Shown here piece by piece: positions 267 through 64,000 of a stretch of DNA of 64,000 bases. The notes beneath the pieces were generated by a model that worked only from the letters and a program-made list of their open reading frames with translations, did not search any database and was not told the origin of the DNA. Position numbers and translations under genes: made by a program. This DNA is from Acorus gramineus (taxonomy: Eukaryota > Streptophyta > Magnoliopsida > Acorales > Acoraceae), in the NCBI GenBank assembly GCA_030737835.1, contig CM060848.1:31478737-31542736 (forward strand), in the 5' to 3' direction. Each line of letters begins with the position of its first letter. The stretch's first letter is position 1.

Positions 267-530
267 TGTTATATATGTGTCACTTTTTTGGCCTGTTGGT
301 AACCATTGGAGCATTTTGACAGTTTTTGAGTTTTTTCGTTTTTCGATCGGAACCGGTAAAATTTTGGACTGTTAGCTATCGTCCTAAGCCAGAGGACTCC
401 GATTGAAAATCTAACTGCATATTATGTGTCCTGGTGCCATTTTAAGCCACTCATGAAAATTTCATCGAATTCCGGCAACGTTTCCAAAATTTCGCAGTTC
501 CGGGGCGTATCTGGGTTTTTAAGTCACTTA

Positions 531-540
531 CTATATATAT
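531..540 (+). promoter_or_regulatory. TATA box of the Ty3 LTR
   Basis: 'ctatatatat' follows the conserved block 'ggggcgtatctgggttttta'. The same position holds a TATA-like motif in the 3' LTR (around 8332-8341) and 'tataaata' in the LTR at 22420-22427. Transcription would start roughly 30 bp downstream, near 565, and would include the palindrome at 666-690 in the leader. Confidence 0.7.
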
Positions 541-665
541 GTGAGATCTAATTTTGAGAAGCACTATTCATCATCCCTACCAATCTTTCCCTCTCTCCTC
601 TCTCTCATTTTTCTCCCTTTTGAAGCCCTTAGACCCCTCAAACCCAAAAACCTAAAGCATAAGAA

Positions 666-690
666 GTGTAGATCGGGTCCCGATCTACAC
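666..690 (+). other. Conserved 25-nt palindrome in the LTR leader
   Basis: GTGTAGATCGGG and CCCGATCTACAC are perfect reverse complements separated by a single T. The same palindrome is at 8465-8489 and, with small changes, at 22555-22579 and 16699-16723. It lies about 100 nt after the presumed start site. In RNA it would be a strong hairpin or a self-complementary dimerisation surface; the function is inferred only. Confidence 0.75.
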
Positions 691-1151
691 CCCGGTGCCT
701 TCAAATCCCATTTCCGACGAGTCTAGCCTCCCCATCCTCCCCCTTTCTCCTCTGTTTTGGGCCGTTTCGAAGGCCGAGCGAGATCCGGGCATAAGAGGGC
801 TTTGGGGAAGGGTTTCGGTGCGCGGAGAGCACCCGGTCACCTCTTCCTCCCCCTTGGTAAGCTCTTTTTCCCTCTTTTTCATGGTTAGATGCTTGATAGG
901 AGGGGGTTTTTGGAGTTGGGTGGTGGTCGGCGGCCGTGGGTGACAGCCGGAGGTGGTTGGGGGCGGTCGGAGGCCGTCGGAGGCCATTGGGTGGGTGGTG
1001 GAGGTGCTCGGGCTGTGGGGGTTCTGTTTCGGGCAGCAGGCAGCAGCGGCAGCAGCACAGGCAACGCGCAGGCTGGGCGCACGCCACGCGCACGCGAGGG
1101 CGTGCGCGCGGGGGGAGTTGGTGGCCAACAGGGGCGCGTGTGCTGGGCGTG

Positions 1152-1225
1152 CTGTGCGCGGGTCTGGTGCGAGGAGCTGGTCGAGCAGCTGTGCGCGGGT
1201 CTGGTGCGAGGAGCTGGTCGAGCAG
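1152..1225 (+). repeat. 37-bp tandem repeat in the CpG-rich LTR segment
   Basis: The unit beginning 'ctgtgcgcgggtctggtgcg' is repeated twice back to back (1152-1188, 1189-1225), followed by the start of a third copy. It lies in the first intron-like segment of the LTR. The surrounding 860-1620 is very CpG-rich, low-complexity sequence that gives long artefactual open frames on both strands. Confidence 0.8.
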
Positions 1226-1749
1226 CTGTGCGCGGGTGCTGGGCGTGCGGGCGCTGGGTGTGCTGGGGGTGATGGCCGAGAGGGCAGTGCGTGCAGGGCA
1301 TCGTGCAGGGTGCGCGCGGGGCACGGCGAGGCAGCGGTGGTGCGCGAGGGGTGTGCGCGGGGCGAGGGGCTGCGCGCGGGGCTTGCGGGGTGCTCGCGGG
1401 CCAGCGCAAGGAGTGTGGGGTGTGCGCGGGCGGCTGCGCTGGGGCGCAGGGGCGCGCGGTGCACCCGGGAGGCTCGGCGGCGTGTCCAGGCGGCGGGCAG
1501 AGGCCCGGCGGTGCGCGGGGTGCGTGGGCTGAGGCGCGGCGGTGCACCCGGGCGGTCGGGTGGCCGTGCGGGTGGTTGCCGGCCGTGCGGGTGGTTGCCG
1601 GGGTGCTCGGGCTAGCGTGCGTGCGGGTCGTATGCACGTTTGCCCGAGTGTTGGGTGTTTGGTTGTGGGTTTTGTGTATGTTAAGTCTTTTGTTGTGTAT
1701 TCTGGGTATTTGTGGATTTATACTCACCAGTTAATACCCTGTCTTGCAG

Positions 1750-1785
1750 ATCTCGATGGACGGTCGCGCGTCGACCCGACTTCCG
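1750..1785 (+). other. Putative 36-nt middle exon of the LTR transcript
   Basis: It is preceded by 'tgtcttgcag' and followed by GTGAGT. Exactly 36 nt separate the two sites here and in the other copies: 8815-8850, 23965-24000, 32039-32074 and 62428-62463 on the plus strand; 15603-15638, 47801-47836 and 55516-55551 on the minus strand. Read with two leading bases it encodes the common pattern L-D-G-R-S-R-D/V-D-P, then one base that completes a codon with the last exon. Splicing here is inferred. Confidence 0.6.
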
Positions 1786-2579
1786 GTGAGTGGGACAACC
1801 CAACCCAGTTTGGGAGGCGCTACATGCACTTGGGCGTGTACCGTCCTCCCCTGGGGCAGATAGTTAGTATTAACTGTTTTTTTGAATCCATGTAAGCATG
1901 ATGTGTGTGTGTGTAGAATGCATGCCGCCCTAGACTTGTATGTTAGGGACTTGCACCCTTAGGATTTGTGCATGAGCCGTGCATCCTGTCACCCCGTTAT
2001 CATGCTAGGAAAGCCCGACCTGAGCATGCGTCCTATTAGTTTGATTTATTTAATTAAATGCAAGCTTTAATATTGTTAGCATGCCTTGGGGAATATAAGG
2101 GGGCCTTGCGAGGTTAACATTGAGACCCGGGTTAGGGTACTCCGTGTTCCTCGTTTGGTTGTCGGATGTCCTACATCGGGACCTCAGGTTACCCTCCCAA
2201 GGTCTCTTTTCCCCATTTATGTCTTATTTATTTCCCCGCATCCTGGTTATGCGCGCTGGTGGAATTCTGAGGAATTCAAGACATTAGAGTTGTAGAGATG
2301 TGCTGTCAGCGGATCCGAGTGGATCATATGCGATGGATAGGCTGTTCTGTTCCCTTCGTTGGATCCGTGTAGAGACTACCTCGGCGTTGGAAAGGTTGTC
2401 CCGTGCAGGGGCTCCCATTAGTAGGCGCCTCCTGATTTGGTAGAAGGACTGTGCTGAACATGGGAGTGGCCAAACGACCTACGGAGTGAGGAGAGACTAT
2501 CGGTGGACCAAGGGTGACCAACAGCCTAGTCAGTCCCAAGAGCCTAGGTCACCTGTTGAGAGGTGAGGGTGAGGGTATA

Positions 2580-2712
2580 GTGGGCCGGCGATGCGACGAC
2601 CCACAGGATTATGTATGGATGATTATCAGCCCATTAAGTCCCAACATCCTTGGTCACCTATTGAGGGTGAGGGTGAGGGTGAGGGTATGGCGGTTCGGCG
2701 ATGTGACGAACC
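2580..2712 (+). other. Two (GGTGAG)n tracts with adjoining hairpins
   Basis: A unit of about 100 bp ('cagtcccaa...ggtcacc..ttga', then a GGTGAG tract, then a hairpin) occurs twice. The hairpins are at 2580-2604 (GTGGG...CCCAC) and 2692-2712 (GGTTCG...CGAACC) around a GGCGATG-like loop. The tract at 2665-2685 has four GGG runs with three-base spacers and could form a G-quadruplex. Other LTRs carry one to three copies. Confidence 0.75.
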
Positions 2713-2842
2713 CCCGGATTTGTGTTGTTTATGCCGCTTTGGGGCTATTGACTTGATTTAAATGTGGTTAATATGAACTGTATGCATGGGTTGTGCTATT
2801 CACTGAGCATGTGGCTCACCCCTCTCATAAAATCTTTTTCAA

Positions 2843-2895
2843 TGATCACTGAGGAGGACTTGAAGGAGGAGCTTCCCGAGCGACTACACCAGTAG
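2843..2895 (+). other. Putative last coding exon of the LTR transcript
   Basis: Two bases, 16 codons and a TAG: the acidic peptide contains I-T-E-E-D-L-K-E-E-L-P-E and ends in Q before the stop. The acceptor is intact in sister copies (for example 'tttttcag' before 9903) but is CAA here. Equivalent segments are 9903-9955, 25248-25312, 32898-32950 and 63618-63670 on the plus strand, and 14493-14545, 46905-46957 and 54624-54676 on the minus strand. Confidence 0.55.
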
Positions 2896-3245
2896 CGGAG
2901 TAGCGCCACGTCCCTCGAGTCTTGAGGCCATCAGCACCCTTCTCTTTGTTGTATGTATATATCTCTGTGCTTGGGCACCTAGTTGGATTTTGTATGGATT
3001 GTATTTGTGTATTTATGGACATGTTGGCTCTCACAGGACATATGATTATGTATCGAGTCTGTAGTATATTTTGATTACAGATTCAGTCTTTTTAGCTTCC
3101 GCATTTGGTGTATATATTATGTCAGCCCTGCTTTATCTGTGTTGTCATTTGCTGTTGTGTGAGTATGTTATTGACTCCTGTTTACTGATATCATATATAC
3201 ACTTGCCGCGTCCCGGGGACGGCCGCCCTGGGGCGTGACAAAAGT

Positions 3246-3257: not shown

Positions 3258-3360
3258 CTGGTCTTGTCAGAGCCAATTGTCTTCTTTTTCGTAGAGATGA
3301 GTCCTAGGATTTCTATATGCGTATTCTGATCCTAGTGTCTGGTTTTCTTAGGTTGCTGAT

Positions 3361-6300
3361 ATGCCTCCTCGCAGAGGACGGCGCGGACGTGGTCCCTCTC
3401 GACCCTTGGAGGTCTCCGGACCTGCCAGAGTCGAGGATGCTATTGGTGAGTCCTCAGCCGTGAGGCCAGGATCAGCTCAGGAGCCTCCTGCCTGGGAGCG
3501 CGCGTTTGCGCGGTTAGCAGATTTGGTAGAGACCCAGACGAGGGTGTTGGCAGATCAGGCACGGGAGATACAGGAGCTGCGGGCGGCCCGCGAGGCAGTT
3601 CCGCAGGTTCCCCTGGTGGCAGATCCACCTGCGGTACCCGATGTACCCCCAGTTCCCGTGGTGGTCCCGGCGGTCAGAGTTCAGGATCCTCAGGAGAGGG
3701 AGGCAGGGCTAGAGGCTGCAGCGAGGGTCCAGCAGAGTGGACTCTCAGCCTTTCTGAAGCTCCATCCTCCCGAGTTCTGCGGTCAGACGGAGGACCCCCT
3801 TGCTCCTGAGAGATGGTTGATGGAGGTGGATACCATCTTCTCGACGATGCTTTGCACAGACCGCCAGCGGGTCTCCCTGGCCGCATTTATGCTGAAGGGT
3901 AGCGCCGCCGAGTGGTGGGCTACTAGATCAGTGGACATCCCAGAGGGATTGGAGCGGCTCACATGGGCGGGGTTCAGGGGATATTTCTTGGAGGAGTATT
4001 TCCCCTTCTCGACGCGACAGATAGTGATGCAGGAGTTTGAGCAGCTGACTCAGGGCACTATGTCCGTCGCTGACTACTCCACGCGGTTCACGAGGCTGTC
4101 CCGATTCGCTCCAGCTCTGGCGATGGACGAGGAGATGAGGTGCCGTCGATTCGAGCTCGGTCTCAGCAGTGCCATCCGAGTGCACGTCACCGCCCATGCT
4201 TTCACGAGGTACTCCGACTTAGTGTCTCGGGCGAAGACCGTCGAGAGAGACCTCGGGATCCAGGTGCGGGCTCCGACCACGTCGACAGACCAGAGGCCAC
4301 CCAGAGGTCAGGACAGAGGGCAGCGCAAGAAGAAGAGGGCCCGCTTCGAGCAGTCAGCGGTTTCCTCTCCTCCAGCAGATGCGGTGCCAGTGCGAGGTCC
4401 GGCACCCATCGCAGCAGTGCCAGTCCAGACGAGGCGACCGGAGACGAGGCGCTGTTATCACTGTCAGCGCGTCGGGCATATTCTGTATAATTGCCCCGAC
4501 GCTGGCCGACCCGCAGTGATGCCCCAGCAGCAGCAGTTGCAGCAGCGGCCGTTCCAGCAGCAGCGCCAGCAGCAGCAGCAGCAGCCTCAGCGCCAGCCGC
4601 AGCAGCAGCCTCAGCGTCAGCAGCAGCAGCCACAGGGTGGCCGTGCTGATCAGAGGAGGCAGCCAGCGCAGCAGGCGAGGCGTGCCCCTGCTCCTCAGCC
4701 TCAGTTCGTCCAGGGCCGAGTGGCAGCGCTTTCGGCAGAGGAGGCCCAGGCATCAGGCAGCGTGGTCAGAGGTACTGTTCAGATCTCCCAGCTTCCTGCT
4801 TATGTATTGTTTGATTCCGGAGCCACACACTCGTTCGTGTCTCCCGCTTTTGCGAGACGGACGGGTGTGGCGTCCGCTCCTCTAGATGCTGTGTTAGAGG
4901 TGTCATTGCCCGTGGGAGACCGTATTCTCCTCAGTTCAGTGTACCGAGGGTGTACGGTAGAGATCGCGGAGCATGAGTTCCCGGTAGAGCTGGTGGAGCT
5001 TGCGATGGCGGATTTTGATGCCATCCTGGGGATGGATTGGCTTGCAGCTAGTCATGCCAGCATCGACTGTTTCGCCAAGTCGGTGTCGTTCCACCTTCCT
5101 GGTCGGAGGTCCTTCCAGTTCGTGGGCGATCGAGACGTGGCTCCTTTGGGGTTCGTGTCGTCCATGCAGGCGTGGAGACTCCTTCAGGGTGGATGCGAGG
5201 GCTTTCTAGCTTATATTGCTCTGGAGGATGCACCGCTGCGGGCAGATATCAGTCAGACTCCGGTCGTGGCAGAGTATCCTGAGGTTTTCCCCGATGATCT
5301 TCCGGGATTACCGCCGGATCGCGCGATCGAGTTTGAGATCAATCTGATTCCGGGGACCGAGCCGGTTTCGAGGGCTCCGTACCGGATGGCCCCTGCAGAG
5401 CTGAGGGTGCTGAAGGAGCAGTTGGAGGAGTTGCTGGAGAAGGGCTTCGCACGTCCGAGTGTGTCTCCGTGGGGAGCCCCTGTCCTGTTCGTCCGGAAGA
5501 AGGACGGTTCGCTGCGGCTGTGTATTGATTACAGGCAGCTGAATAAACGGACAGTGAAGAACAAGTACCCGTTGCCGCGGATCGACGATCTGTTTGACCA
5601 GCTCCAGGGAGCGTGTGTCTTTTCCAAGATCGATCTCCGCTCGGGGTACTACCAGCTGAAGATCCGGGAGTCAGACATTTCGAAGACGGCCTTTCGCACC
5701 CGGTATGGGCACTACGAGTTCAGAGTACTGCCATTCGGGTTGACGAACGCGCCGGCGGCCTTCATGGATCTGATGAACCGGGTATTTCGACCCTTCCTCG
5801 ACTCCTTTGTGGTAGTATTCATCGATGATATATTGGTGTACTCGAGGAGTCTTGAGGAGCACGCTCACCATCTTCGCACTGTCTTGGAGACTTTGGCCAG
5901 ACATCAGTTGTTCGCCAAGTTCAGCAAGTGCGAGTTCTGGTTGGAGCGGATGGCCTTTCTGGGCCATGTGATTTCCGGTGAGGGTATAGCTGTGGACCCG
6001 GAGAAGACGCTCGCCGTGTCGAATTGGCGTCGACCGTCGAACCCCACTGAGATTCGGAGCTTCTTGGGCTTGGCGGGTTATTACAGGAGGTTTGTGGAGG
6101 GTTTCTCCAAGATAGCCGTTCCTCTTACCCGCCTCACTCGGAAAGATGTTCGGTTCGAGTGGTCCCCTTCTTGTGAGGAGAGCTTCCAGGAGCTGAAGCG
6201 AAGGCTCACCTCAGCGCCAGTTCTTACCCTTCCATCTGGGAGTGGTGGGTTCGCAGTATACACAGATGCATCGCAGTTGGGTGTGGGTTGCGTCCTGATG

Positions 6301-6747
6301 CAGCACGGTAAGGTGGTGGCTTACGCGTCTCGTCAGTTGAAGCCCCATGAGCAGAACTACCCCACCCATGACCTCGAGTTGGCTGCGATCATATTTGCGC
6401 TGAAGATGTGGAGGCATTACCTCTATGGAGAGGAGTTCGAGCTCTTTACTGATCATAAGAGCTTGACATATCTGCAGTCTCAGCCGGAGCTCAACATGCG
6501 TCAGAGGCGTTGGGTTGAGTTCCTGACAGACTACGATTGTGACATCGCTTACCATCCGGGTAAGGCGAATGTCGTTGCAGATGCGCTCAGTAGGCAGCCC
6601 CTGGGCATGGCCGCCCACATGGCTGTCCGTCGTTGGAGGCTTCTAGAGGAGGCGTCGCCCGGGGCGAGCGTCCGGACTACCAGATTCGCGCAGACGGGAT
6701 CCTGCGATTTAGAGGCCGAGTGTGCATACCCGACGACGCAGAGCTGA
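3361..6747 (+). CDS. gag-protease-RT-RNase H polyprotein of element A (5' part of gag-pol)
   Basis: Opens with [11 protein letters not shown] about 100 bp after the primer binding site; this ATG begins the conserved gag N-terminus. Domains: retrotransposon gag (about residues 130-300), CCHC zinc knuckle C-Y-H-C...H...C near 365-378, a long Gln-rich stretch encoded by CAG repeats (about 387-425), aspartic protease [10 protein letters not shown] near 482-491, reverse transcriptase with catalytic V-F-I-D-D near 818, and RNase H with Y-T-D-A-S near 965. The product would be cut into capsid, enzyme and nucleocapsid parts. The frame is correct up to about nt 6650, where a deletion of roughly 150 bp relative to element D shifts it; the last ~35 residues are out of frame and integrase continues in another frame. 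Confidence 0.9.
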
Positions 6748-7258
6748 GGCGGAAGATTCTGGACGAGGCCCATCGCTCGAGGTACACCGTGCACCCTAGA
6801 GGCACGAAGATGTACAGAGGCCTTCGTCGCGGCTACTGGTGGCGCGGGATGAAGACGGATATCGCCCGTTTCGTTGCCCGATGCCTAGTATGCCAGCAGG
6901 TGAAGTCGGAGCATCAGCGCCCTCCGGGGAAGCTGCAGTCCACTGAGATCCCTCAGTGGAAGTGGGAGCAGATCACCATGGACTTTGTCTCGGGTTTGCC
7001 GAGGTCACGTTCGGGTCGCGATGCCATTTGGGTGATCGTCGACCGGCTGACGAAGTCTGCTCATTTCCTCCCCATCCGACTCACCGATTCTCTGGACACT
7101 CTGGCGCAGTTATTCGTCTCCGAGATTGTCCGTCTCCATGGCACTCCAGTCAGCATCATTTCTGATCAAGACGCGCGTTTTACTTCGAGGTTCTGGCGTA
7201 GCCTCCAGCACGCCCTTGGTACGAACCTCCATTTCAGTACCGCGTTTCATCCTCAGAC
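6651..7258 (+). pseudogene. Integrase segment of element A (frame-shifted)
   Basis: It continues the polyprotein in the third frame after the deletion near 6650. It shows the integrase zinc-binding HHCC module (H-R-S-R-Y-T-V-H ... C-L-V-C, about nt 6770-6900), then the catalytic core with M-D-F-V-S-G-L-P near 6979 and I-S-D-Q-D-A-R-F near 7165. Element D has S-D-R-D at the second position, so Q is a change in this copy. A one-base deletion at about 7258 moves the rest (G-Q-S-E-R-T, with the catalytic Glu) into the second frame. Integrase would insert the cDNA into chromatin. Confidence 0.88.
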
Positions 7259-8019
7259 GACGGCCAGTCGGAGAGGACGATCCAGACCCTTGAGGACATG
7301 CTGCGGGCCTGTGTACTCGATTTTGGGGGCAGTTGGGAGAGGCACATTCCGTTGGTGGAGTTTGCCTACAACAACAGCTACCACTCGAGTATCAGGATGG
7401 CTCCCTACGAGGCACTTTATGGCCACAGCTGCAGGTCCCCCCTATGTTGGGACGAGGTCGGAGAGCGCCAGCTAGAGGGACCAGAGATCGTTCACCAGAC
7501 CTCCGAGATGGTGAAGACGATCCGCGAGCGTATCCGAGTCGCTCAGAGTCGTTAGAAGAGCTACGCCGACCGCCGTTGCCGTGAGCACACCTTCGAGGTC
7601 GGTGACCATGTGTTCTTGAAGGTGTCCCCGATGAAGGCATCTTCCGATTCGGTGTGCGGGGCAAGCTGAGTCCGCGTTTCATTGGGCCGTTCCTCATCCT
7701 TGAGCGAGTTGGGGAGGTGGCCTATCGCATAGCTCTGCCCCCACAGTTGGCTCAGGCCCATGACGTCTTCCATGTCTCGCAGCTAAGGCGATACGTCCAC
7801 GATCCTGCTCACATCATCCCGTTCGAGCCGCTCGTCTTCGAGCCGGACTTGTCTTTCGTGGAGCAGCCGATTGAGATCCTGGACCGCCGCGAGAAGAGGC
7901 TCCGCACCAAGACCGTCCAGCTGGTCAAGGTGCGATGGCAGCACCGTTCCGGTGCCGAGGCCACCTGGGAGCTCGAGGACACCATGCGTGACGCGTATCC
8001 GCATCTTTTCCCTTCTTAG
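7259..8019 (+). pseudogene. Integrase C-terminus and chromodomain-like tail of element A
   Basis: Second frame from 7259: end of the integrase core, then the GPY/F-type region; an in-frame TAG at 7553-7555 replaces a Gln codon seen in element D. Near 7650 the frame shifts again to the first frame, and 7654-8019 reads the conserved end: F-I-G-P-F, Y-R-I-A-L-P-P, H-D-V-F-H-V-S-Q-L, and a chromodomain-like segment V-K-V-R-W ... A-T-W-E-L-E-D. Chromodomain tails of this clade help target insertion to modified chromatin. The protein ends 16 codons after that segment. With four lesions the pol region is not translatable as one product. Confidence 0.87.
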
Positions 8020-8067: not shown

Positions 8068-10305
8068 TGTTATATATGTGTCACTTTTTGGCTTGTTGGT
8101 AACCATTGGAGCATTTTGGCAGTTTTTGAGTTTTTTCGTTTTTCGATCGGAACCGGTAAAATTTTGGACTGTTAGCTATCGTCCTGAGCTAGAGGACTCT
8201 GATTGAAAATCTAACTGCATATTATGTGTCCTGGTGCCATTTTAAGCCACTCATGAAAATTTCATCGAATTCCGGCAACGTTTCCAAAATTTCACAGTTC
8301 CGGGGCGTATCTGGGTTTTTAAGTCACTTACTATATATATGTGAGATCTAATTTTTGAGATGCACTATTCATCATCCCTACCAATCTTTCCCTCTCTCCT
8401 CTCTCATTTTTCTCCCTTTTGAAGCCCTTAGACCCCTCAAACCCAAAAACCTAAAGCATAAGAAGTGTAGATCGGGTCCCGATCTACACCCCGGTGCCTT
8501 CAAATCCCATTTCCGACGAGTCTAGCCTCTCCATCCTCCCCTCTTTCTCCTCTGTTTCCGGCGGTGTGTCCAGGCGGCGGGCAGAGGCCCGGCAGTGAGC
8601 GGGGTGCGTGGGCTGAGGCGCGGCGGTGCACCCGGGCGGTCGGGTGGCCGTGCGGGTGGTTGCCGGCAGTGCGGGTGGTTGCTCGGGCTAGCGTGCGTGC
8701 GGGTCGTATGCACGTTTGCCCGAGTGTTGGGAGTTTGGTTGTGGGTTTTGTGTATTTTAAGTCTTTTGTTGTGTTTGTGGATTTATACTCACCAGTTAAT
8801 ACCCTATCTTGCTGATCTCGACGGACGGTTGCGCGACGACCCGACTTCCGGTGAGTGGGACAACCCAACCTAGTTTGGGAGGCGCTACATGCACTTGGGC
8901 GTGTACCGTCCTCCCCTGGGGCAGATAGTTAGTATTAACTGTTGTTTTGAAATCCATGTAAGCATGATGTGTGTGTGTGTAGAATGCATGCCGCCCTAGA
9001 CTTGTATGTTAGGGACTTGCACCCTTAGGATTTGTGCATGAGCCGTGCATCCTGTCACCCCGCTATCATGCTAGGAAAGCCCGACCTGAGCATGCGTCCT
9101 ATTAGTTTGATTTATTTAATTAAATGCAAGCTTTAATATTGTTAGCATGCCTTGGGGAATATAAGGGGGCCTTGCGAGGTTAACATTGAGACCCGGGTTA
9201 GGGTACTCCGTGTTCCTCGTTTGGTTGTCGGATGTCCTACATCGGGACCTCAGGTTACCCTCCCAAGGTCTCTTTTCCCCATTTATATCTTATTTATTTC
9301 CCCGCATCCTGGTTATGCGCGCTGGTGGAATTCTGAGGAATTCAAGACATTAGAGTTGTAGAGATGTGCTGTCAGCGGATCCGAGTGGATCATATGCGAT
9401 GGATAGGCTGTTCTGTTCCCTTCTACGGATCCGCATAGAGACTACCTCGGCGTTGGAAAGGTTGTCCCGTGCAGGGGCTCCCATTAGTAGGCGCCTCCTG
9501 ATTTGGTAGAAGGACTGTGCTGAACATGGGAGTGGCCAAACGACCTACGGAGTGAGGAGAGACTATCGGTGGACCAAGGGTGACCAACAGCCTAGTCAGT
9601 CCCAAGAGCCTATGTCACCTATTGAGAGGTGAGGGTGAGGGTATGGTGGGCCGGCGATGCGACGACCCACAGGATTGTGTATGGATGATTATCAGCCCAT
9701 TAAGTCCCAACATCCTTGGTCACCTATGGAGGGGTGAGGGTGAGGGTATGGGGTTCGGCGATGTGACGAACCCCCGGATTTGTGTTGTTTATGCCGCTTT
9801 GGGGCTTATGACTTGATTTAAATGTGGTTAATATGAACTGTATGCATGGGTTGTGCTATTCACTGAGCGTGTGGCTCACCCCTCGCATAAAATCTTTTTC
9901 AGTGATCACTGAGGAGGACTTGAAGGAGGAGCTTTCCGAGCGACTACACCAGTAGCGGAGTAGCGCCACGTCCCTCGAGTTTTGAGGCCATCAGCATCCT
10001 TCTCTTTGTTGTATGTATATATATTTCTGTGCTTGGGCACCTAGTTGGATTATGTATGGATTTTATTTGTGTATATATGGACATGTTGGCTCTCACAGGA
10101 CATATGATTATGTATCGAGTCTGTAGTATGTTTTGATTACAGATTCAGTCTTTTTAGCTTCCGCATTTGGTGTATATATTATGTCAGCCCTGCTTTATCT
10201 GTGTTGTCATAATTGCTGTTGTGTGAGTATGTTATTGAACTCCTGTTTACTGATATCATATATACACTTGCCGCATCCCGGGGACGGCCGCCCTGGGGCG
10301 TGACA
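8068..10305 (+). repeat. 3' LTR of element A (2238 bp, internally deleted)
   Basis: Nearly identical to the 5' LTR outside one large gap. Sequence corresponding to about 747-1483 of the 5' LTR is missing; the junction is near 8560 ('cctctgtttccggcggtgtg'). The deletion removes the first splice-donor-like site and most of the CpG-rich segment. The middle-exon acceptor is altered (CTG instead of CAG at 8812-8814), while the last-exon acceptor is intact (AG at 9901-9902). The gap prevents a simple whole-LTR age estimate, but the remaining parts differ by only scattered substitutions. Confidence 0.9.
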
Positions 10306-11584: not shown

Positions 11585-11914
11585 TCAATCAACCAATAAG
11601 TAGGACACATAGAATTGTTTACCTCGACTTTGTACCAGACAAATATTGGACTTCTTGACTGATTCTTTTGTAACTTTTTTCTTCGGAGGGGGTTTGGTTG
11701 ATTCCTTGGGAGCTTTGGGGGATGGCTTAGACAGGGCTTTTGTAGATGGCTTCTGAGTAGGGGATTTGGTGAAAGGCTTTGCAAGAAGTTTTTTGGATGG
11801 CTTTGAAGCGGGGGATTTGGTGGAAGACTTGGAAGGAGTTATTTTGGAAGGCTTTGATGCGAGGGATTTGGTGGAAGGCTTGGAAGGAGCTTGTGATCTA
11901 GTAGAAGTCATCAA
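11585..11914 (-). CDS. Lys/Ser/Pro-rich repeat protein segment of the CACTA-like element
   Basis: An open frame of 109 residues made of repeats such as K-P-S-T-K-S-P-A-S-K-P-S-K, ending in a short non-repetitive tail. It is strongly basic and would be disordered. It probably belongs to the same multi-exon gene as the Thr/Pro/Glu-rich segment at 12010-12418 and the domain at 10480-11110, since all are on the minus strand in order. It was not recognised as a family with known function. The start shown is the first Met of the frame and may be internal to an exon. Confidence 0.4.
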   Translation of the reverse strand: MMTSTRSQAPSKPSTKSLASKPSKITPSKSSTKSPASKPSKKLLAKPFTKSPTQKPSTKALSKPSPKAPKESTKPPPKKKVTKESVKKSNICLVQSRGKQFYVSYLLVD

Positions 11915-12009
11915 AAGAAACTTTTATGGATGGCTTTTTAGCAGAGCATTTGCTAGAAGGCTTGGCAGGACCTTTTGTCAATGGTTTTGGCATAGCGTTT
12001 GGTGGAAGG

Positions 12010-12418
12010 TTAGGCAGGACTTTTTGTCGATGGCTTTTCAATAGGGGATTTGGTAGATGGCTTTTCAGTAGGGGTTTCAGAGGATGGCTTTTCAGTAGGG
12101 GTTTCAGATGATGGCTCTTTAGTAGGGGCTTCGGTGGATGGCTCTTCAGTAGGGGTTTCAAAGGATGGCTTTTCAGTAGGTTTTAGATGATGGCTCTTTA
12201 GTAGGGGGTTCGGTGGATGGCTCTTCAGTAGGGGGTTTGGTGGATGGCTCTTCACTAGGGGGTTCAGTGGATGGCCTGGGAGGAGCTTCTGTGGATGTGT
12301 TTTGTACAAGGGATTCAGTGGATGGGTTTGAAGGAGCTTCTGTGGATGGGTTTTTAGTAGGGGATTCAGTATTGAACCTTGGACTTCTTCTTGGTGTCAA
12401 ACCCTCTGTTCGAACCAT
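12010..12418 (-). pseudogene. Ser/Thr/Pro/Glu-rich repeat segment, probable first exon of the CACTA-like gene
   Basis: From an ATG at 12418 the frame reads M-V-R-T-E-G-L-T-P-R-R-S-P-R-F and then repeats of P-T-E-E-P-S-T-E-P, encoded by a ~30-bp minisatellite ('cagtaggggtttcagatgatg' type). Near 12178 the frame shifts and the same repeats continue in another frame to about 12010. The arginine-rich start is common in plant transposon-borne Ulp1-type genes. Repeat slippage probably caused the frame change. Function unknown. Confidence 0.45.
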
Positions 12419-13429: not shown

Positions 13430-13927
13430 TTCTATGAAAAATGCGACCTTTCCCTGCGAAATATTTCACAGGGAAACGTCTGTTTTTTTTATAAATATAT
13501 TTATAGACTTTTAGCTACGAAATTAATCTCACAGCAAAATGTCATCTTTTAAAATATGGCCTTTTGCGACGAAATTATTTCGTAGCAAAAGGCTACCTTC
13601 TGCTACAAGAAAAAATTCGCAGCTAAAAGACAACATTTGCTACGAAATAAATGTAGTAGTAAAAGGTAACCTTTTGCTATGAAAATAATTTCGTAGCAAA
13701 TGGTGACTTTTTGCTGCGAAAATATATCTTTTGCTGCGAAACTATTTTCGTAGCACAATGACACTTTTGCTACGAAACTAAAATTTCGCAACGTAATATC
13801 TTCCCATACGAGGCATTCGCTACGAAAATAGCGACGAAATGATTTCATCGAGAAAGACCTTTTGGTACAAATAGACAAGTTTTTGCTACGAATTATTTCA
13901 CAGCTAATGCCCATATTTCTTGTAGTG
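13430..13927 (-). repeat. CACTA subterminal repeats and terminal inverted repeat
   Basis: More than ten copies of 'ttttgctacgaaa' or its complement 'tttcgtagcaaaa' in both orientations, ending with '...tttcttgtagtg' at 13927 (CACTACAAGAAA on the minus strand). Such arrays are where CACTA transposases bind. The element boundary is sharp: coding LINE sequence starts immediately after. Confidence 0.72.
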
Positions 13928-14145: not shown

Positions 14146-17100
14146 TGTCACGCCCCAGGGCGGCCGTCCCCGGGACGCGGCAAGGGTATACATGATATCA
14201 GCAGTCAATAAAAGAGATCAATAATATACCATAATCCATAGGAAAAAGACAACACCGACAACAAAAGGCTGACATGATGTATACACAGAAATGCGGAAGC
14301 TAAAAAGACTGAATCTGTAAATCAACAACACTTTACAGACTCGATACATAATCATATGTCCTGTGAGAGCCAATATATCCACAATACATCCAAATATAAT
14401 CCATACTAGGTGCCCAAGCACAGAAATATATACATACAACAAAGAGAAGGATGCTGATGGCCTCAAAACTCGAGGGACGTGGCGCTACTCCGCTACTGGT
14501 GTAGTCGCTCGGGAAGCTCCTCCTTCAAGTCCGCCTTGGTAATCACTGGGAAAAACAATTATGCGAGGGGTGAGCCACACGCTCAGTGAATAGCACAACC
14601 CATGCATACAGTTCATATTAACCACATTTAATCAAATCACTAGCCACAAAGTGGCATAAACATCACAAATCTGGGGGTTCGTCACATCGCCGAACCACCA
14701 TACCCTCACCCACACCCTCACCCCTCAATAGGTGACAAAGGATGTTGGGACTTAATAGGCTGATAATCATCCTTACACAATCCAGTGGGTCGTCACATCG
14801 CCGGCCCACCATACCCTCACCCTCACCCCTCAATAGGTGACATAGGCTCTTGGGACTGACTAGGCTGTTGGTCACCCTTGGTCCACCGATAGTCTCTCCC
14901 CACTCCGTAGGTCGTTTGGCCACTCCCACATTCAGCACAATCCATCCACCAAATCAGGAGGTGCCTACTGATGGGAGCCCCTGCACTAGACAACCTGTCT
15001 AACGCTGAGGTAGTCTCTACACGGATCCAACGAAGGGAACAGAACAGCCTATCCATCGCATATGATCCACTCGGATCCGTGACAGCTCATCTCTACAACT
15101 CTAACGTCTTGAATTCTTCAGAATTCCACCAGCGCGCATAACCAAGATGCGGGGAAGTACATAAGATAAAAATGAGGAAAGGAGACCTTGGGAGGGCAAC
15201 CTGAGGTCCCGTTGTAGGACATCCCGACAACCAAACAAGGAACACGGAGTACCCTAACCCGGGTCTCAATGTTAACCTCGGAAGGCCCCCTTATATTCCC
15301 CAAGGCATGCTAATAATATCACGAGCTTGCATTTAATTAAATAAATCAAACTAATAGGACACATGCATAGGTCTGGGCTTCCCTAGCATGATAACGGGGT
15401 GACAGGATGCACGGCTCATGCACATATCCTAAGGGTGCAAGTCCGTAACATACAAGTCTAGGGTGGCATGCAATCTACACATAAATCATGCTAGCATGGA
15501 TTACAATACAACAGTTAATATTAACTATGTGCCCCAGGGGAGGATGGTACACGCCCAAGTGCATGTAGTGCCTCCCAAACTGGGTTGGGTTGTCCCACTC
15601 ACCGGAAGTCGGGTCGTCGCGCGACCGTCCGTCAAGATCTGCAAGACAGGGTATCAAGTTGGTGAGTAAAACCCACAAATACTACAAAATACACAACAAC
15701 ATACCAATAAACACCCAACACTCAGGCAAACGTGCATACGCCCCGTACGCACGCTAGCCCGAGCACCCCGACTCACTCCCGCACCCCCGGCAACCACCCG
15801 GACGGCCACCCAAGCCCCGGATGCACCCAGGCGCACCGCCGGGCCCCTGCCCGCCTCCTGGACACGCCGCCGAGCCTCCCGGGTGCATCGAGCGCCCACT
15901 GCGCCCCATCACAGCAGCCCGCGCGCACCCGAACGCCCCGCGCTGGCCCGCGAGCACACCACACGCCCCGCGCGCACCTCCGCTGCCTCGCCGCGCTCCG
16001 CGCGCACCCCCGTGCGCACCCCCGGCTCGCCCAGCACTCCACCGACTCGCCGCGCGCGCGCACAGAGTGCCTGCGCCCCTGCGCAGCGCTCCGCGCGCAC
16101 CCCGCACGACGCCCTGCACGCAGCGCCTACTCGACCAGCACCCAGCATCGCCCACCGCCCAGCACGCCCAGCGTCCGCTCGCCTAGCACGCCCAGCGCCT
16201 GCATGCCCAGCACGCCCAGCGCCCAGCACCCGCATGCTCAGCACGCCCAGCGCCCAGCAAGCGCGCCCTGCTGGCCTCCAGCTCCACCCGAGCGCACGCC
16301 CGCGCGCACGCACATGCGCGCCCTGCCAGCTGCTCCGCCTGCTGCGCCTGTGCTGCTGCCTGTGCTGCCTGCTGCCCGAGACCACCCATCCACCCTGCCC
16401 GAGCACCTCCACCACTACCCATCGGCCACCAACGGCCTCCGACAGCCTCCCACAGCCGCCGACCACCACCCAACCTCAAAACCCCCTTCCTAACAAGCAT
16501 CTAAGCCAAAAAGAAGAGGAAAAACAGCTTATCAAGGGGAGGAAGGGATGTCCGGTTGCTCTCCGCGCACCGAAACGCTTCCCCAAAGGTCTCTACCACC
16601 AAGACCTACTCCCACCTCCGAAATGGCTCGGATCTGAGGAGAAGAGAGGGCGGAAGAAAGGGATAGGTAGGCCGGAATCCGGATTTGAAAACACCGGGGT
16701 GTAGATCGGGACCGGATCTACACTTTCTATGTTTTAGGTTTTTGGGTTTGAGGACTCTAGGGGGCTCAAAAGCTTGTTTTTGAGAGAGGGAGAGAGAGAA
16801 ATCACCACGAGGAAGAAGATGAATAGGGGGCTTTAGTCGTGGGATTTGGTTATAACCACCCCCATCCCACCTATACTCACACCCCTGATTAGATTAGCCT
16901 TAATTAGGTTTAGGGGGCTTAAGAGGTGTTTTAAGTGGGTTTGACCTAAGTCAACCCAACCACACAAAAGGACAAAAGTGGTTGACCAAGTCATGGGCCC
17001 ACTTTGACCGAGTCAACTCTCCCAATGACTTCTCGTTCGGTCAAAACCCGGATACGCCACGGAACTGCGAAATTCTGAAACGTACCGGAATTTGATGAAA

Positions 17101-45915: not shown

Positions 45916-46199
45916 GATACTTGGGCAAGTATATGGTAGAAAAGGAGGTTCTACGCAATATACGAGCTATACAATCCTAGCATGCAAATATCTAGCATAT
46001 TTAGGGTGCAAAGAAATCCCATGGATGCGCAATGCGCGACTACGTGCATCGAGCACATCCCAAAGGGTTGGATCGAACCACTCACTGCAACCCGGGTCGT
46101 CGCGCATCATGAGGCAGCACACGAGCTGGGCAAGTGGGGCAGCACGCATGCAGGGGGAGGCACGCACACTCGGGGCAGCACTCGGGATGCACAGGCAGG

Positions 46200-46540: not shown

Positions 46541-46568
46541 AGACACACGGGCACGCCGACACGCCTAC

Positions 46569-48518: not shown

Positions 48519-49554
48519 CCTACACCCAAGCAACCAAGCACACACAAACCAAAACACAAACACTTAGCATGCACCACCTCTCAACACACCCAATGAGCTG
48601 AAAAACCAGAAAAAAAAGTGGGGAAAGCTTATCAAGAGAAGGGGAAAGTGAAGGGGGTGGTGTGGGAGCTCGCAAGCACGCCCATGACCACCTCGACCAC
48701 CACCACCACTACCACCACTTCAGCCTTCATTCCTCTTCTTCTTGCTGAACCAGAGGGGAGGGGGGATCCATGGATAACATTAGGGGGGAGCAATAGAAGG
48801 AGGAGAGGGAAGAGACAACAACAATGGCACACACCTTCTCTTCTTTGCTCTTCCAAGCACTTCTTCCTCATCTTCCCCTTCTAAAACTCTACCAAACACA
48901 CTCAAGAGGGCTGGACCAAAGAGTGTGAGAGAGGAGACATTTGGGGGGGAGGACATTATATAGCCAAAGTGGAATTCAAAGGACAAAAATCATCCATGAC
49001 CTGAAATTCTGTACATGCTTCACTAGAACAGCCATAACTTCCTCAATATAGCTCCGAATTGCACAATTTAAAATCCACTGGAAAGCCAAGAAGATTATCT
49101 ACAACTTTCATGTTTATGCTCAGATTAAATAACCCCTCCAGCTGTTTCAAAATATGAGTTAAACATCAAACAGGGCTGCTGCTAGGATTTTCTCATCCCC
49201 GGGGTATACTTGGAAAAATACCCATAACTTTTACTACATGAATCCAGTTGATCCAATTCAACTTTTGTATGAAAGCTAACTCAAAATTGAGCATCTCATG
49301 ATAAAATCATATTTAAACCTCTTCATCTTTGATATTAAAAAAATTAAATCCGAATACCAATTGGATTGCATAACTTCTACAAAGATGTCAGAATGCGACG
49401 CGAATTTACAGGTAGGCCAATGCCAATACCAGGAGAACAATCATGTAGACAAATTTTCAATCAGAGTTCTTCAAATCCTGCAGGTAGCTAAAACCCAAAA
49501 TTTTAGCGACCCCGATCGAAAAAATATATGCCTCCAAATGACACAGGCCTAACA

Positions 49555-54275: not shown

Positions 54276-56861
54276 TGTCACGCCCAGGGCGGCCGTCCCC
54301 GATACGTGGCAAATATATATAATATCAGTAGTCCATACAGGAGATCAATAAAAGACTCTACACAACATCGAAAATGACAACACAATCAATAATGTAGCTG
54401 ACATAATATATATACATATAGCGGAAGCTTAAACGACTGAGTCTGTAATTCAAAGACATATTACAGACCAAAATACATAATCAACTGTCCTGTGAGAGCC
54501 AATATAAACAAAGACATCCATATACAAGTGTTGTGCCCAAGCACGGATAACAATACATACAAGCAAAGAAGGGGATGCTGATGGCCTCTCACTCGCATAA
54601 CCCAAAACGTGAACGCTGCTCCGCTACTGATGTGATGCCTCGGGGAGCTCCTCCTTCAGATCCGACTCAGTAACAACTGGAGGAAAAGAATATGCGAGGG
54701 GTGAGTCACACGCTCAGTGAATGGCACAATCTATGCAACACAACTCATATTAACCTTATAATAATTAAAGTCCCTAAACGGGAGGAACTGTACAAGCTAG
54801 TGGGTCGTAACATCGCCGACCCACCCCACCCTCACCCTCACCCTTTAAGGGGTGACATGGGCCTTTTGGGACAGACTAGACTGCTCTCCACCATTGGTCC
54901 ACCAGTAGCCTCTCCCTCGCGTAGCCTCTACCTGGTATACTCCCACGATCAGTACCCTCCGAACACATCGGTGGTACCTACAGATGGGAGCCCTCTGTCA
55001 GGACAGCTTTCCCAACGTCGGGGAGTCCCTACTCGGATCCAACGAAGGGGAGAAAACAGCCTACTCACACGGATACGATCCTCTTGGATCCGTCGACAAC
55101 GATTTCTAACACTACTAATGTCATGAATTCTCAAGAATTCCTCCAGGGCGCATAACTGAGATGCGGGGAAACATATATTATAATAACAAGGTAATAATAT
55201 TTTCTAAGGCATGCTTATACCAACATAATCTCATTTTGATTTAATTAAATTAAACTAAATGGGAAACATGCATAGATCAAGGCTTTTCAAGCATGGGACA
55301 TGGTGTCTAGAAATGTATGCGCCTCTATACATGATACATGGATGTATATCCCTAGCATACAATGTCTAATATGGCATGGTTACATCATAGTAAAACATGC
55401 ATTAACATAGTTTTTCATTGACACAAGTTAATATGCAACTATGGTGCCCAGGGGAGGGCAATGCACGCCTACGTGCATCGAACGCCTCCCTACTGGGTTG
55501 GATTGACCCACTCACCGCAACCCGGGTCGTTGCGTGACCGTTCGCCAAGATCTGCAAGACATGGGCATTCAATATGGTGAGTAAACTACACAAATATACA
55601 TGAAATTTACTAGAAATACCAAAGACTTAGACATGCACGCATACGAGCTCGCACGCATGCGAGCACGTGGGTACGCACGCATGCCCGGGTGCCCCTGCAC
55701 CTACCCGAGACCCTGGGCAGCCCCACGCATGCCCCAACGCACGCACGCTCGCGCGCGCCCGCGCGCACTCACGCGCAGTTCCCGCGCGCACCACCGCTCG
55801 AGCCAGCGCCCGCGCGCACCCGCAAGCTCGCGCGCCCGCCTGCGCCTGCCAGAGCCCTCCTGCGCGCGCGCCTGCGCGCGCGCGCGAGCAGACTGCCCCC
55901 AGCGCGCGCCCACTCACCCCTAACCCCTTTTTAACCCTCCCCAACCCCTCACACACATTCTAACACATCTACCCAACATGCATGACCTCCCCAACCATCC
56001 CTAAGCCATAAAAACCAAGAAAAGAAGGGGAAAGGCTCACCTTGGGAGGGGAAATGAAAGGGGGAGGTTCGGGGGCCCTCGACGCACCCGCGACCACCTC
56101 AACCACCACCACCACTACCACCACCTCTTCAGCCCTCCTCATCCCTCCTTTGGCTGCAAATCAGGGGGGAAAAGTTCATGAAAGATAACTTGAAAGAGAG
56201 GAGATCAACAACAACAACAACACTTACACAACCCTAGACTTGCACTTGCACCTTCTCCTTCTCTTCTCTTTGAGGAGATAATACAAACACTTGGGGGGGG
56301 GGGGGAAAGAGAGAAGAGAGAGCCAAGAAAGTGTAGACGTGTGAGTGGGAGAGAGAGAGGGAGAGATATTTTGGCACATAAATATCTAAAGGAGGGGTAG
56401 AAATGACCTATTTATCGTTGGCTAGAAATTCTGAGCATGCTTCACTATAACCGCCATCACTTCCCCAATATAGCTCCGCATTGCACAATTCAAAGTCCGT
56501 TGGAAAGCCAAGAAGATTATCTACAACGTTCTTGTTTATGCCACGATCAAATAATCCCTCCAGCTATTCTGAAATGTGAGCTAAACATTGAACAGGGCTG
56601 CTGCCAGAATTTTTCATCCCCGGGGTATACTTGGAAAAATACCCATAACTTTTACTACAGGAATCCAGTTGATCTAATTCCACTTTTGTATGAAAGCTAA
56701 CTCGAAACTGAGCATCTCATAATAAAATCATATTTAAACCTCTTCATCTTGGATTTTAACAAAATCAAATCCAAATACCAAATTGGAAATACATAACTTC
56801 GAGGAGAAAATTATGTAGCCAAATTTTCAATCAGAGAGCTCCAAATGACACAGGCACAACA
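54276..56861 (-). repeat. 3' LTR of element D (2586 bp)
   Basis: TGTCACGCCCAGG at 54276 to ...GGCACAACA at 56861. Transcript plan on the minus strand: first exon ends at 56041 with donor GTGAGC, first intron 55552-56040 (489 bp, CpG-rich in 55640-55910), middle exon 55516-55551, second intron 54677-55515, last exon 54624-54676. A perfect 8-bp hairpin stem GTGGGTCG/CGACCCAC is at 54800-54824 beside 'accctcaccctcaccc'. A C/G-run of 11-12 bases at 56296-56307 is a likely slippage site. Confidence 0.87.
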
Positions 56862-60810: not shown

Positions 60811-60824
60811 GTCCTGGCTCCTGG

Positions 60825-61793
60825 GGGGCCTCTGGTCTGCAGGAGGGGTTGAACCCCCAAAGGGACCCCAAGGTCTCGCTCAACTGTCCTCGCATGAGAC
60901 ACCAAGTCTGAGTACCTCGTGAACGCTTGTGAGGTGACATGCACCCTGATGGTGCTAATGAGACCCATCTCGAAACGACGGCATCGCGTCTCCTCATCCA
61001 TCACCAAGGCGGGGGCGAACCGGGAAAGCCTCGTGAAACGTGTAGAGTAATCAGCGACCGACATGGAACCCTGCGTCAGCTGCTCGAACTCTCGCATCAC
61101 GATCTGGCGTGTCGAAAATGGGAAGTACTCCTCCAGAAAGTAACTCCAGAATCCAGCCCATAGAAGTCGCCCCACGCCCTCGGGGATGTCCACCGATCGG
61201 GTAGCCCACCAGTCGGCGGCGCTACCCTTCAACATGAAGGTGGCCAGTGAGACACGCTGGCGGTCGGTGCAGTGCATGGTCGAGAAGATCTTGTCTACCT
61301 CCATCAACCAACGCTCAGGGGCAAGGGGGTCCGCCGTCTGGCCATGGAACTCGGGAGGGTGAAGCTTCAGAAAGGCAGTGAGGCCGCTCTGATGCACTCG
61401 TGCCACAGCCTCTAGCTCCACCTCCCTCTCTAGGGGATCCTGAACTCCCACTACCGGAATCTCCACTTGGACAGTGGGTACCTCAGGCACCACCGGTGGA
61501 TCTGCCACCAAGGGGACCTGTGGAACTGCCTCGCGGGCCGCCCGCAGCTCCTGGATCTCTCGCGCCTGATCAGCCAATGCCCTAGTCTTGGCCTCCAGTG
61601 CCCTAGTCTGAGTCTCCACTAGATCTGTGATACGAGCGTAAGCACACTCCCATGCAAGAGGCTCCTGCGCTAGTCCTGGCCCAATAGCCGAGGACCCTCC
61701 AGTAGACTCCTCGCCTCTGGTAGGTTCGGAAACCTCCAAGGCCCGAGGGGGACCACGTCCACGCATCCCTCTGCGAGGAGGCAGGGCGCGTGC
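60825..61793 (-). pseudogene. gag (capsid part) of element D, start codon replaced
   Basis: Reads leftward from 61793: P-P-R-R-G-M-R-G-R-G-P-P-R-A-L-E-V, matching the gag start of element A, but the initiator codon position is CTG because foreign LTR sequence begins there. A Q-T-R-A-L repeat and [10 protein letters not shown] coiled segment follow, then the gag domain with [15 protein letters not shown] and F-E-Q-L-T-Q-G. Near 60840 the frame shifts relative to the knuckle-protease-RT part. The open frame continues rightward into the adjoining LTR, a chance fusion. Capsid assembly is the normal role. Confidence 0.82.
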
Positions 61794-64000
61794 TGCCAGG
61801 CGCGCTGGGCGCGTGTTGCGTGTGCGTGCGCGTGGGCGCTGGGTGAGGGTCCCGGGTGCTGGGCGCAGAGCGCTGGGCGCTGGGTCGCGGGTACCGGGTG
61901 CTGGCCGAGGGTGCTGGGCGCTGGGGCGCTGGGCGCTGGGCACCGCTGTGGGGCGTGCGCGCGGGGCGCTGGGCATAGGCAGGCGTGCGCGCGGTGTGGG
62001 AGCTGGTGGTGCGCGCGGAGTGCGCGTGGGGCGGAGCTGGCGGTGCGCGCGAGGTGCACGCGGGGCAGAGCTGGCGGTGCGCGCGGGGTGCGCGCGGGGC
62101 GTGCGGCGTGCTCGTGTGGTGTGCGCGGGGAGCGCGGGGGTGCGCGCGGTGCACCGGGTGGCTCGGCTGCGGGTCCAGGGCGGCGGGCAGGGGCCCGGCG
62201 GCACCTGGGCGGGCGGGCTGAGGCGCGGCGGCGCACCCGAGGGGTCGGGTGACCGTGCGGGTGGTTGCCGGTGGTGCGGGAGTGAGCCGGAGTGCTCGGG
62301 CTAGCGTGCGTACGTGCCGTATGTACGTTTGCCCGAGTATGGGGTATTTTTTGAGTAGTTTAATGTATTTTTGGGTATTTTGGGGTAATTGTGGATTTTA
62401 CTCACCGTATAAATGCCTGTCTTGCAGATCTTGACAGACGGTCGCGCGACGACCCGGATTTCGGTGAGTGGGACAATCCAACCCAGTAGAGAGGCGTTAT
62501 ACGCATTTTGGGCGTATACCGACCTCTCCTGGGGCGTCATGGACGTATATTAACCTGCCGTAATATGTAGTCCATGCTTGTATGATTTAAATTGTAGAAT
62601 GCATGTTACCCTAGACTCTGCATGTTAGGGACTTGCACCCTTAGGATATGGGTATGAGCCATGCACCATGTCCCCTGTTTCCATGTTAGGAAGCCCGACC
62701 AATGAATGTGCCCTACTAGTTTATTTATTAAATTAAATGCTAGTATTTGTTAAATTGCATGTTATAGTGAATATTATAGGGGAGGGGCCTTGCGAGGACA
62801 CCGGTGAGACCCGGGTTAGGGTACACCGTGTTCCTTGTTTGGTTGTCGGGGTGTCCTATAACGGGAACTCACGCTGCCCTCCCGAGTTTCTTTCCCCCAA
62901 TGATATTCCACCCTTGTTATAACCTTATGCATGTTCCCCGCATCGTAGTTATGCGCCCTGGTGGGTTTTGAGGAATTCAGAACATTAGTGTTGTTATGAT
63001 GTGTTGTCTGCGGATCCGAGTGGATCATATGCGATGGATAGGCTGTTCTGTTCCCTTCGTTGGATCCGTGTAGAGACTACCTCAGCGTTAGACAGGTTGT
63101 CCCGTGCAGGGGCTCCCAGTAGTAGGCGCCTCCTGATTGGTAGAAGGACTGTGCTGAACGTGGGAGTGGCCAAACAACCTACGGAGTGAGGAGAGACTAT
63201 CGGTGGACCAAGGGTGACCAACAGCCTAGTCAGTCCCAAGAGCCTAGGTCACCTATTGAGGGTGAGGGTGAGGGTATGGTGGGCCGGCGATGTGGCGACC
63301 CACTGGATTGTAAGTCCCAATATCCTTGGTCACCCATTGAGGGTGAGGGTGAGGGTGTAGCGGGTTGGCGGAAGCTACCCGCTGGTTTTGTGTTGATTAG
63401 TCCCAATATCCTTGGTCACCCATTGAGGGTGAGGGTGAGGGTGTAGTGGGTTGGCGGTAGCGACCCACTAGTTTGAGGAATTGTTGTTATTTGTGGCTAT
63501 GGTAATGTGGTTGTGGATGTTAAGAATTATCTGGTTGTGATCAATATTGTTTGTGATGCATGGGTTGTGCCGTTCACTGAGCGTGTGGCTCACCCCTCGC
63601 ACAATATTTTTCTTCAGTGTCATCTGAGTCGGATCTGGAGGAGGAGCTCCCCGAGGGACTTCATCAGTAGCGGAGTAGCGCCACGTCCCGTGAGTATCAG
63701 AGGCTATCAGCATCCCTTGTTCCTGTATGTATTATTTTCCGTGCTTGGGCACGTGTTTGTGTTGTATTTGGATGTCTTTGTATGTATATTGGCTCTCACA
63801 GGACATGTCATTATGTATGGAGTATGTAGTATGTTTTGATTACAGATTTAGTCTTAGCTTCCGCATTTTGGTGTATATATCATGTCAGCCCTGCTTTTGT
63901 TGTCTGTGTGTCATTCTGGTTGCTTGTGTATGATATTATTGACCTCTGGTGTAGATTCTGATATTTTATATACACTTGCCGCGTACCGGGGACGCCCGGG
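61794..64000 (+). repeat. Partial Ty3/gypsy LTR, plus strand, head-to-head with element D
   Basis: Begins abruptly within the CpG-rich first intron, then shows 'tgtcttgcag', middle exon 62428-62463, GTGAGT at 62464, three (GGTGAG)n-hairpin units (63230-63470), last exon 63618-63670 with TAG, and the usual 3' part to 64000. The U3, TATA box, palindrome and first exon are missing. Close to the LTR at 22156 (shared 'aatgatattcca', 'gtaatatgtagtccatgc'-like blocks). The sequence at the very end ('ccgcgtaccggggacgcccg') is near but not identical to the usual LTR terminus and the window ends there. Confidence 0.85.

Follow-up and report, generated by a model that had tools for sequence, protein, structure and literature searches.

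The 64,000-nt stretch of Acorus gramineus analysed here (contig CM060848.1, positions 31,478,737 to 31,542,736 of the forward strand; hereafter the window) carries eight copies of a long terminal repeat (LTR) from Ty3 retrotransposons, and from the RNA of these LTRs at least one intron is spliced. One element has both its repeats: LTR 1 (267-3240, + strand), whose ends TGTTATATATG...GCGTGACA were set by self-comparison, is the 5' LTR of a Tekay-like element, and LTR 2 (8068-10305, +) is its 3' LTR; a target duplication was looked for at the ends of this element and none was found. The primer binding site TGGTATCAGAGC lies at 3246, just 3' of LTR 1. Pfam matches to gag, protease, reverse transcriptase and RNase H fall in 3361-6747, and the integrase-bearing element continues with matches in 6633-7475 and with a Chromo match in 7606-8016 that stays just below threshold (E 6e-5; 23.3 bits against a curated cut-off of 25.1 bits). 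The Ty3 label of an earlier, preliminary description of the window is thereby borne out, the domain set of a chromovirus from gag to a near-threshold chromodomain being present. Within the chromoviruses these LTR elements presumably belong to the Tekay clade, an assignment that we base on the long LTR, the chromodomain and the primer site. Perfect 5-bp target duplications flank four solo LTRs, namely LTR 3 (14146-17292, -; ATTTG), LTR 4 (22156-25655, +; AAACA), LTR 5 (30636-33297, +; CAACT) and LTR 6 (46569-48518, -; GTAGG). LTR 7 was followed from exon 2 to the LTR end (54276-55601, -), and LTR 8 (61781-63998, +) is partial, as the end of the window cuts through it.

All eight pairs of exon-like segments that the preliminary description had proposed are present at their positions and on their strands. 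The first segment is 36 nt long and directly followed by GTGAGT in every copy; the second ends in TAG in every copy and measures 53 nt in seven of them and 65 nt at 25248-25312, where exon 3 of LTR 4 is 12 nt longer. The gap between the two, put at 820-1250 bp, measures 823-1247 nt. The flanking AGs ascribed to all copies hold for most: AG stands directly before exon 2 in six of the eight (TG before 8815 and, on the minus strand, GG before 47836) and before exon 3 in seven (AA before 2843). In LTR 1 the segments are exon 2 (1750-1785, +) and the beginning of exon 3 as far as the TAG that closes the proposed frame (2843-2895, +), and in LTR 7 they lie at 55516-55551 and 54624-54676 (-). Upstream of them in LTR 1 we place exon 1 (561-856, +), its 5' end according to a TATA-like stretch at about 531-540 and its 3' end, TTG/GTAAGC (the slash marking the splice boundary), according to processed relatives. 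When the 398.6-Mb genome was probed with exon 2, which yielded 2580 candidates and, among them, 40 scored matches, AG, the 36 nt and GTGAGT were kept in 28 of 28 further copies (L001-L028), features for which the probe itself selects, and the second segment lay within the retrieved stretch in 26 of these. Free of such selection are 264 kb formed by the window plus 200 kb next to it, one region and not a random sample of the genome, in which profiles built from the eight copies match 24 exon-2 and 22 exon-3 sites. The recurrence of the segments is beyond chance. Among five LTRs, conservation amounts to 0.79 for exon 2, 0.755 for exon 3, 0.825 for the hairpins described below, 0.835 for the pre-acceptor block and 0.78 for the 40 nt after the TAG, compared with a mean of 0.66 over the whole of 1750-3240. 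The claim that the LTR sequence neighbouring the segments varies is true of intron 1, in both length and sequence, whereas much of intron 2 equals the exon-like segments in conservation.

What can be learned from the genome about the joining of these segments in RNA? Intron 1 of LTR 1 (857-1749, +; 893 nt, 70% G+C, repeat-rich) has a counterpart that is exactly lost in LTR 6, on the minus strand from 48518 to 46569. Aligned with LTR 5, LTR 6 is 83% identical over 1912 columns that are broken by two large gaps. The first gap, of 619 nt, is bounded in LTR 5 by TTGG/GTAAGC and TTGCAG/ATCTTG and matches its 620-nt GT...AG intron 1 (31419-32038); the second, of 92 nt, matches a 91-nt mini-intron, GTATTG...TTTCAG, at 31225-31315 within exon 1. 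This mini-intron, an extra intron of one subfamily, had escaped the preliminary description, as had the existence of processed LTRs. LTR 6 is a processed copy, without intron 1 and the mini-intron and with intron 2 kept. The second processed copy, L048:1653(-), is from a divergent family and, compared with L030, is missing 517 nt at TTTG/GTAAGG...TTACAG/ATCTCG. The gap ends of the processed copies are exact within one or two alignment bases. As LTRs made from spliced RNA exist, intron 1 is spliced from RNA, and RNA without intron 1 can be the template from which an LTR is reverse transcribed.

Deletions are common in decaying LTRs, and the two intron-less copies could be chance products of such decay; LTR 2, for instance, has lost 709 nt, including the end of exon 1 and the intron-1 donor, with a 7-nt overlap at the ends of the deletion. 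However, that deletion does not have its boundaries at splice sites. In the two independent processed copies, by contrast, the gaps coincide exactly with donor and acceptor, and LTR 6 has lost two GT...AG introns. With ends this exact, chance is a very unlikely source of the processed copies.

The remaining copies show how intron 1 changes while it is retained. Its length ranges from 518 to 1266 nt among copies in which the donor was located. Twenty-one of the 24 exon-2 matches in the 264 kb retain upstream intron sequence (with the AG in 19 and a mutated form in two), two are processed and one is damaged. The damaged case, at window position 46106, has lost the integrity of its exon-2 start and has LTR 6 nested in its upstream intron; the host is an older LTR of the divergent family (about 43590-49530, -) whose intron-1 donor is mutated to TTG/ATAAG. 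In LTRs 1, 4 and 5 of what we call family A, intron 1 (857-1749 and equivalents) has a G+C content of 67-73% and abundant short tandem repeats, which is odd for a plant intron. The intron 1 of L030, with a G+C content of 36%, has no match at E<=1e-3 other than itself and L045; it shows no similarity to that of family A, yet occupies the same position. A position that is kept while the sequence is turned over between families is the behaviour expected of an intron.

Intron 2, in LTR 1 proposed to span 1786-2842 (+), is likely a true intron because of its GTGAGT donor, its pyrimidine-rich acceptor and the conservation of both. The 12 nt before the acceptor carry 8-12 pyrimidines in all eight window copies, with the letters changing from copy to copy, and within intron 2 of LTR 1 only 2 of 65 other AGs are preceded by at least 9 pyrimidines in 12 nt. 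The acceptor block of LTR 1 (2801-2842, +) reads CACTGAGC(A/G)TGTGGCTCACCCCT... and includes the pyrimidine tract; its AG is mutated to AA in this copy. The block recurs upstream of acceptor 2 in the divergent family and also in a third LTR family (L047:8233), where an otherwise different LTR-like sequence has CACTGAGCGTGTGG...CTCACTCCT...TTTCAG at L047:8233-8275. Given its presence in a third and otherwise different LTR, several families of plant LTRs may have the acceptor block in common. The spliced transcript that the preliminary description had postulated for the long LTRs is therefore established for intron 1, by exact losses in two families with dissimilar introns, while intron 2 is proposed from sequence only. 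We also observed that several copies of LTR intron 2 match the C-terminal tail of P0125, a public Acorus gag protein; gag and LTR sequence may be fused in gene models.

Directly 3' of the exon-2 donor lie two RNA hairpins, likewise absent from the preliminary description: a short one that starts at the sixth base of GTGAGT, followed by a long one. Together with the donor they occupy the start of intron 2 in LTR 1 (1786-1860, +) and are kept in the processed LTR 6 (47726-47800, -); the divergent-family version is found at 46011-46085 (-) in the older LTR that hosts LTR 6. The 52 hairpin matches comprise 27 distinct sequences, 25 of which were aligned after one with an internal deletion and one with an insertion had been dropped. 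Of the 596 cells that the 24 named pairs comprise, 91.9% hold standard pairs, as against 34.6-52.4% when the pairing is slid. Both sides have changed in 16 cells versus 4.9 in shuffles, and the covariation score is 0.153 versus 0.117; none of 500 shuffles reached either value. A covariance model of the hairpins finds 23 places in the 264 kb, each at an LTR donor of this kind, most of which were in the training set. There were no Rfam matches at gathering score in the window and no matches of the hairpin pattern in viral contigs. A conserved RNA structure 3' of a donor, as sought in a packaging signal, is thus present, and it would be removed if intron 2 were spliced. The first hairpin of the divergent family, GTGGTTCGATCCAAC (L030:3598-3620 and relatives), resembles a tRNA T-arm or B box.

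Do the joined exons encode a protein? The preliminary description had suggested an accessory protein, or a regulation of gag translation, and had itself named as a weak point that no initiator ATG was found and that exon 1 frames disagree. Both reservations proved correct. An in-frame ATG is absent from the inferred exon 1 in all 38 copies in which this exon was identified (39 rows minus the copy at window position 62400, whose donor was misplaced), L027 having one further upstream, at the end of U3; and the exon-1 frames differ between subfamilies. Moreover, an 11-nt frameshifting deletion in exon 3 is common to two copies at separate loci and so marks a lineage of at least two copies, and in the divergent family five of five exon-3 matches lack the TAG-terminated frame, their lengths differing by single bases. 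The 40 nt beyond the TAG are conserved no less than exon 3, so that the exons do not stand above neighbouring LTR blocks. No homologues of the joined peptide of 53 amino acids (aa) were found among compared proteins of about 29-93 aa.

The check on synonymous change that had been proposed gave a faint excess in one exon and none in the other. A test on 37 of 43 copies considered the 29 variants that at least two copies have in common: read in the proposed frame, 14 are synonymous (29.7% expected), and read in the two other frames, 6 and 8; exon 3 alone accounts for 10 synonymous changes out of 17 in the same 37 copies. An alignment of all 43 copies gives 12 synonymous changes out of 29 for exon 3, a count attained in 1.2% of 970 overlapping LTR windows, and 5 out of 15 for exon 2, where there is no excess. 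One could still picture a small, conserved acidic protein translated from a non-AUG start through the exon 1 tail, exon 2 and exon 3 to the TAG, and the synonymous excess, along with the 12 nt that the 65-nt exon 3 gains in frame, speaks for it. Set against the missing start codon, the shared frameshift, the divergent family, the sequence conserved past the TAG, the lack of homologues in the size range compared and the unremarkable exon 2, such a protein seems improbable to us: a start codon together with a conserved frame, the marks of a conserved protein-coding gene, was not found. The excess is weak evidence from exon 3 only, and the frame could be a remnant; the exon 2-3 frame would mostly be a by-product of conserved exon sequence and not the trace of a conserved protein. 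A pol C-terminus spliced into the 3' LTR, which would explain the missing ATG, was considered and rejected, as pol ends normally before the LTR; a donor-like site at the end of pol, common to two elements, is in phase 0, whereas exon 2 needs phase 1.

Regulation of gag translation is possible, through the leader rather than through a peptide. The unspliced leader of LTR 1 holds 48 ATGs before gag and the three-exon leader 11, so that splicing removes 37 of the 48. A leader in which exon 2 is joined to an acceptor-like site before gag would hold a single ATG, inside LTR 1's exon 2. This site, TTTTCTTAG/GTTGCTGATATG, lies just before the gag-pol frame (ATG at 3361), together with which it spans 3352-6747 (+), and is a possible further 3' splice site, to judge by its letters. 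The leader between primer site and gag (window 3300-3351) has a conserved acceptor-like TTAG/GTTGCTGA(T/C)ATG, and in related leaders this interval contains short upstream reading frames (ATGAGT...). As for exon 1, that of family A includes a near-perfect 25-nt palindrome (window 666-690), a candidate dimer or hairpin site. The palindrome, GTGTAGATCGGGTCCCGATCTACAC, occurs in many family-A copies; compensatory changes are absent, and it was rejected as a dimer site.

These features can be combined into a model that we consider probable, if by no wide measure: the LTR carries a spliced leader in its R region, and intron 2 holds an element that is specific to the unspliced genomic RNA. Transcription would start some 30 nt downstream of the TATA-like stretch (near 531-540), making the LTR a promoter followed by a transcribed R of about 2 kb, a length also assigned to the R of Retrosat2 (PMC3485330), that spans the introns, with exon 1 (about 290 nt), intron 1, the 36-nt exon 2, intron 2 and exon 3. 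Splicing would yield mRNAs with a short leader for translation. RNA that retains intron 2 would keep the donor-adjacent hairpins, and it is this RNA that would be packaged and reverse transcribed. Since every new LTR is copied from packaged RNA, the genome would record which introns remained in it; if the hairpins are needed on the replication template, intron 1 may be lost from LTRs, as found, and intron 2 should be kept, as its start is in 24 of 24 exon-2 matches. More tentatively, and with less confidence than we have in the leader and its element, the whole LTR may be seen as a splicing switch, in which introns that R carries, and that both LTRs therefore have, separate spliced transcripts destined for translation from unspliced, hairpin-marked ones destined for packaging; loss of intron 1 would be tolerated in new LTRs and loss of intron 2 would not.

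Several observations weigh against this proposal. Processed copies are few, only 2 of 24, and one of them, L048:1653(-), also lacks 88 nt of exon 1 at unclear splice boundaries, a loss that we leave unexplained. Typical plant introns are U-rich (PMC3735527), and the intron 1 of family A is G+C-rich instead. The last 300 nt of exon 1 are free of any ATG in 26 of 38 copies, as might suit a scanned leader; this shortage is not relied on because shuffles mostly reproduce it (P = 0.25, 0.33, 0.33 and 0.04 in four copies, hence within chance in three of the four). The transcription start, the poly(A) site and hence R are placed by inference only. With regard to the hairpins, two of the five covariation measures stand out less than those given above: a double change occurs in 6 pairs, a number that 21 of 500 shuffles reach, and there are 17 further pair types, reached in 186 of 500; fold z-scores are modest, from -1.77 to -2.85 in six copies; and in some subfamilies the pairs of the inner helix are displaced, which makes a single hairpin structure only approximate. 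Finally, the hairpins could serve a role other than packaging, and the start of intron 2 is retained in all 24 exon-2 matches of the 264 kb: the exact excision seen for intron 1 in two LTRs is seen for intron 2 in none of the 24, and intron 2 may thus be rarely or never spliced.

The last two points each lead to a different explanation. If only intron 1 is real, what we call exon 2 would be the beginning of a single long second exon, which would contain the hairpins as well as the remainder of the leader, and the splice sites of intron 2 would be incidental; the consistent retention of intron 2 agrees with this, as does the conservation that continues through the donor and much of the intron. 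Less easily accommodated are the presence of GTGAGT in all eight window copies and in all 28 that the probe selected, the pyrimidine tract of changing sequence before the acceptor, and the recurrence of the acceptor block in the divergent and third LTR families, and we regard a lone intron 1 as rather unlikely. Alternatively, the introns may act on expression only, through intron-mediated enhancement and the removal of upstream ATGs, with hairpins that regulate the use of the donor rather than packaging. That the first hairpin begins inside the donor, and that most upstream ATGs of LTR 1 disappear with splicing, would fit such a role; by itself, though, it does not account for the loss of intron 1 without loss of intron 2, an argument in which two events weigh little. 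We see this as doubtful, if slightly less so than a lone intron 1, and continue to favour a hairpin element that marks the unspliced genomic RNA.

Other features of the window were noted as well. Tandem-repeat arrays of 27-bp and related units lie at 11738-12370, and a palindromic tandem array at 13514-13777, around CTTTTGCTACGAAA...TTTCGTAGCAAAAG, is possibly a DNA transposon end. The stretches 37298-38034 and 41421-42155 are 99% identical and point to a recent local duplication; they adjoin a gene resembling basic 7S globulin and xylanase inhibitors (42130-42867, -).

How do these LTRs compare with known systems? In the retroviral leader, the packaging signal lies near the 5' end, 3' of the splice donor, and is removed by splicing. 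The Acorus LTRs likewise have a structured element directly 3' of a donor, and its packaging role is suggested by this analogy; in contrast to the retroviral arrangement, the Acorus introns lie with donors and acceptors wholly inside the LTR, and hence in both LTRs. Retrosat2, which is listed in the same clade, Tekay/Del (PMC6317226), and other chromoviruses of that clade share the chromovirus gag-pol, a tRNA-Met-type primer site and the long LTR. In Retrosat2, U3 was set at 244 nt and R at about 2 kb (PMC3485330); the cited passages describe no intron in it, and its ORF0 is a separate reading frame (PMC3485330). Ogre, another LTR element of plants, has an intron that is removed from part of its transcripts; this intron, however, sits in the coding region between gag-protease and reverse transcriptase and not in the LTR (PMC6317226, PMC12786077). 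Spliced Gag RNAs and separate RNA pools for translation and replication are described for BARE1 (PMC3735527) and EVADE (PMC12786077), but these are Ty1/copia elements with introns in gag-pol. Cer1 of C. elegans, which is Ty3-related, must export its unspliced RNA via CERV, a protein made from spliced RNA (PMC10309623, PMC12786077); no counterpart of CERV is proposed for the Acorus LTRs.

How one transcript of a plant LTR retrotransposon is divided between translation and replication has been named an open question (PMC3735527), and a 2025 review treats plant elements as generally intron-less, with Ogre and EVADE as exceptions (PMC12786077). We found no reports of introns within plant LTRs in the open-licence literature searched. 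For genome annotation, the LTRs described here imply that long LTRs may be misannotated as genes or exons. For the biology of the elements, introns inside the LTR open the question of translation versus replication to tests that need nothing but genomes: an LTR without an intron preserves evidence of the spliced RNA from which it was reverse transcribed, and tallying such copies intron by intron shows what the packaging machinery admits.

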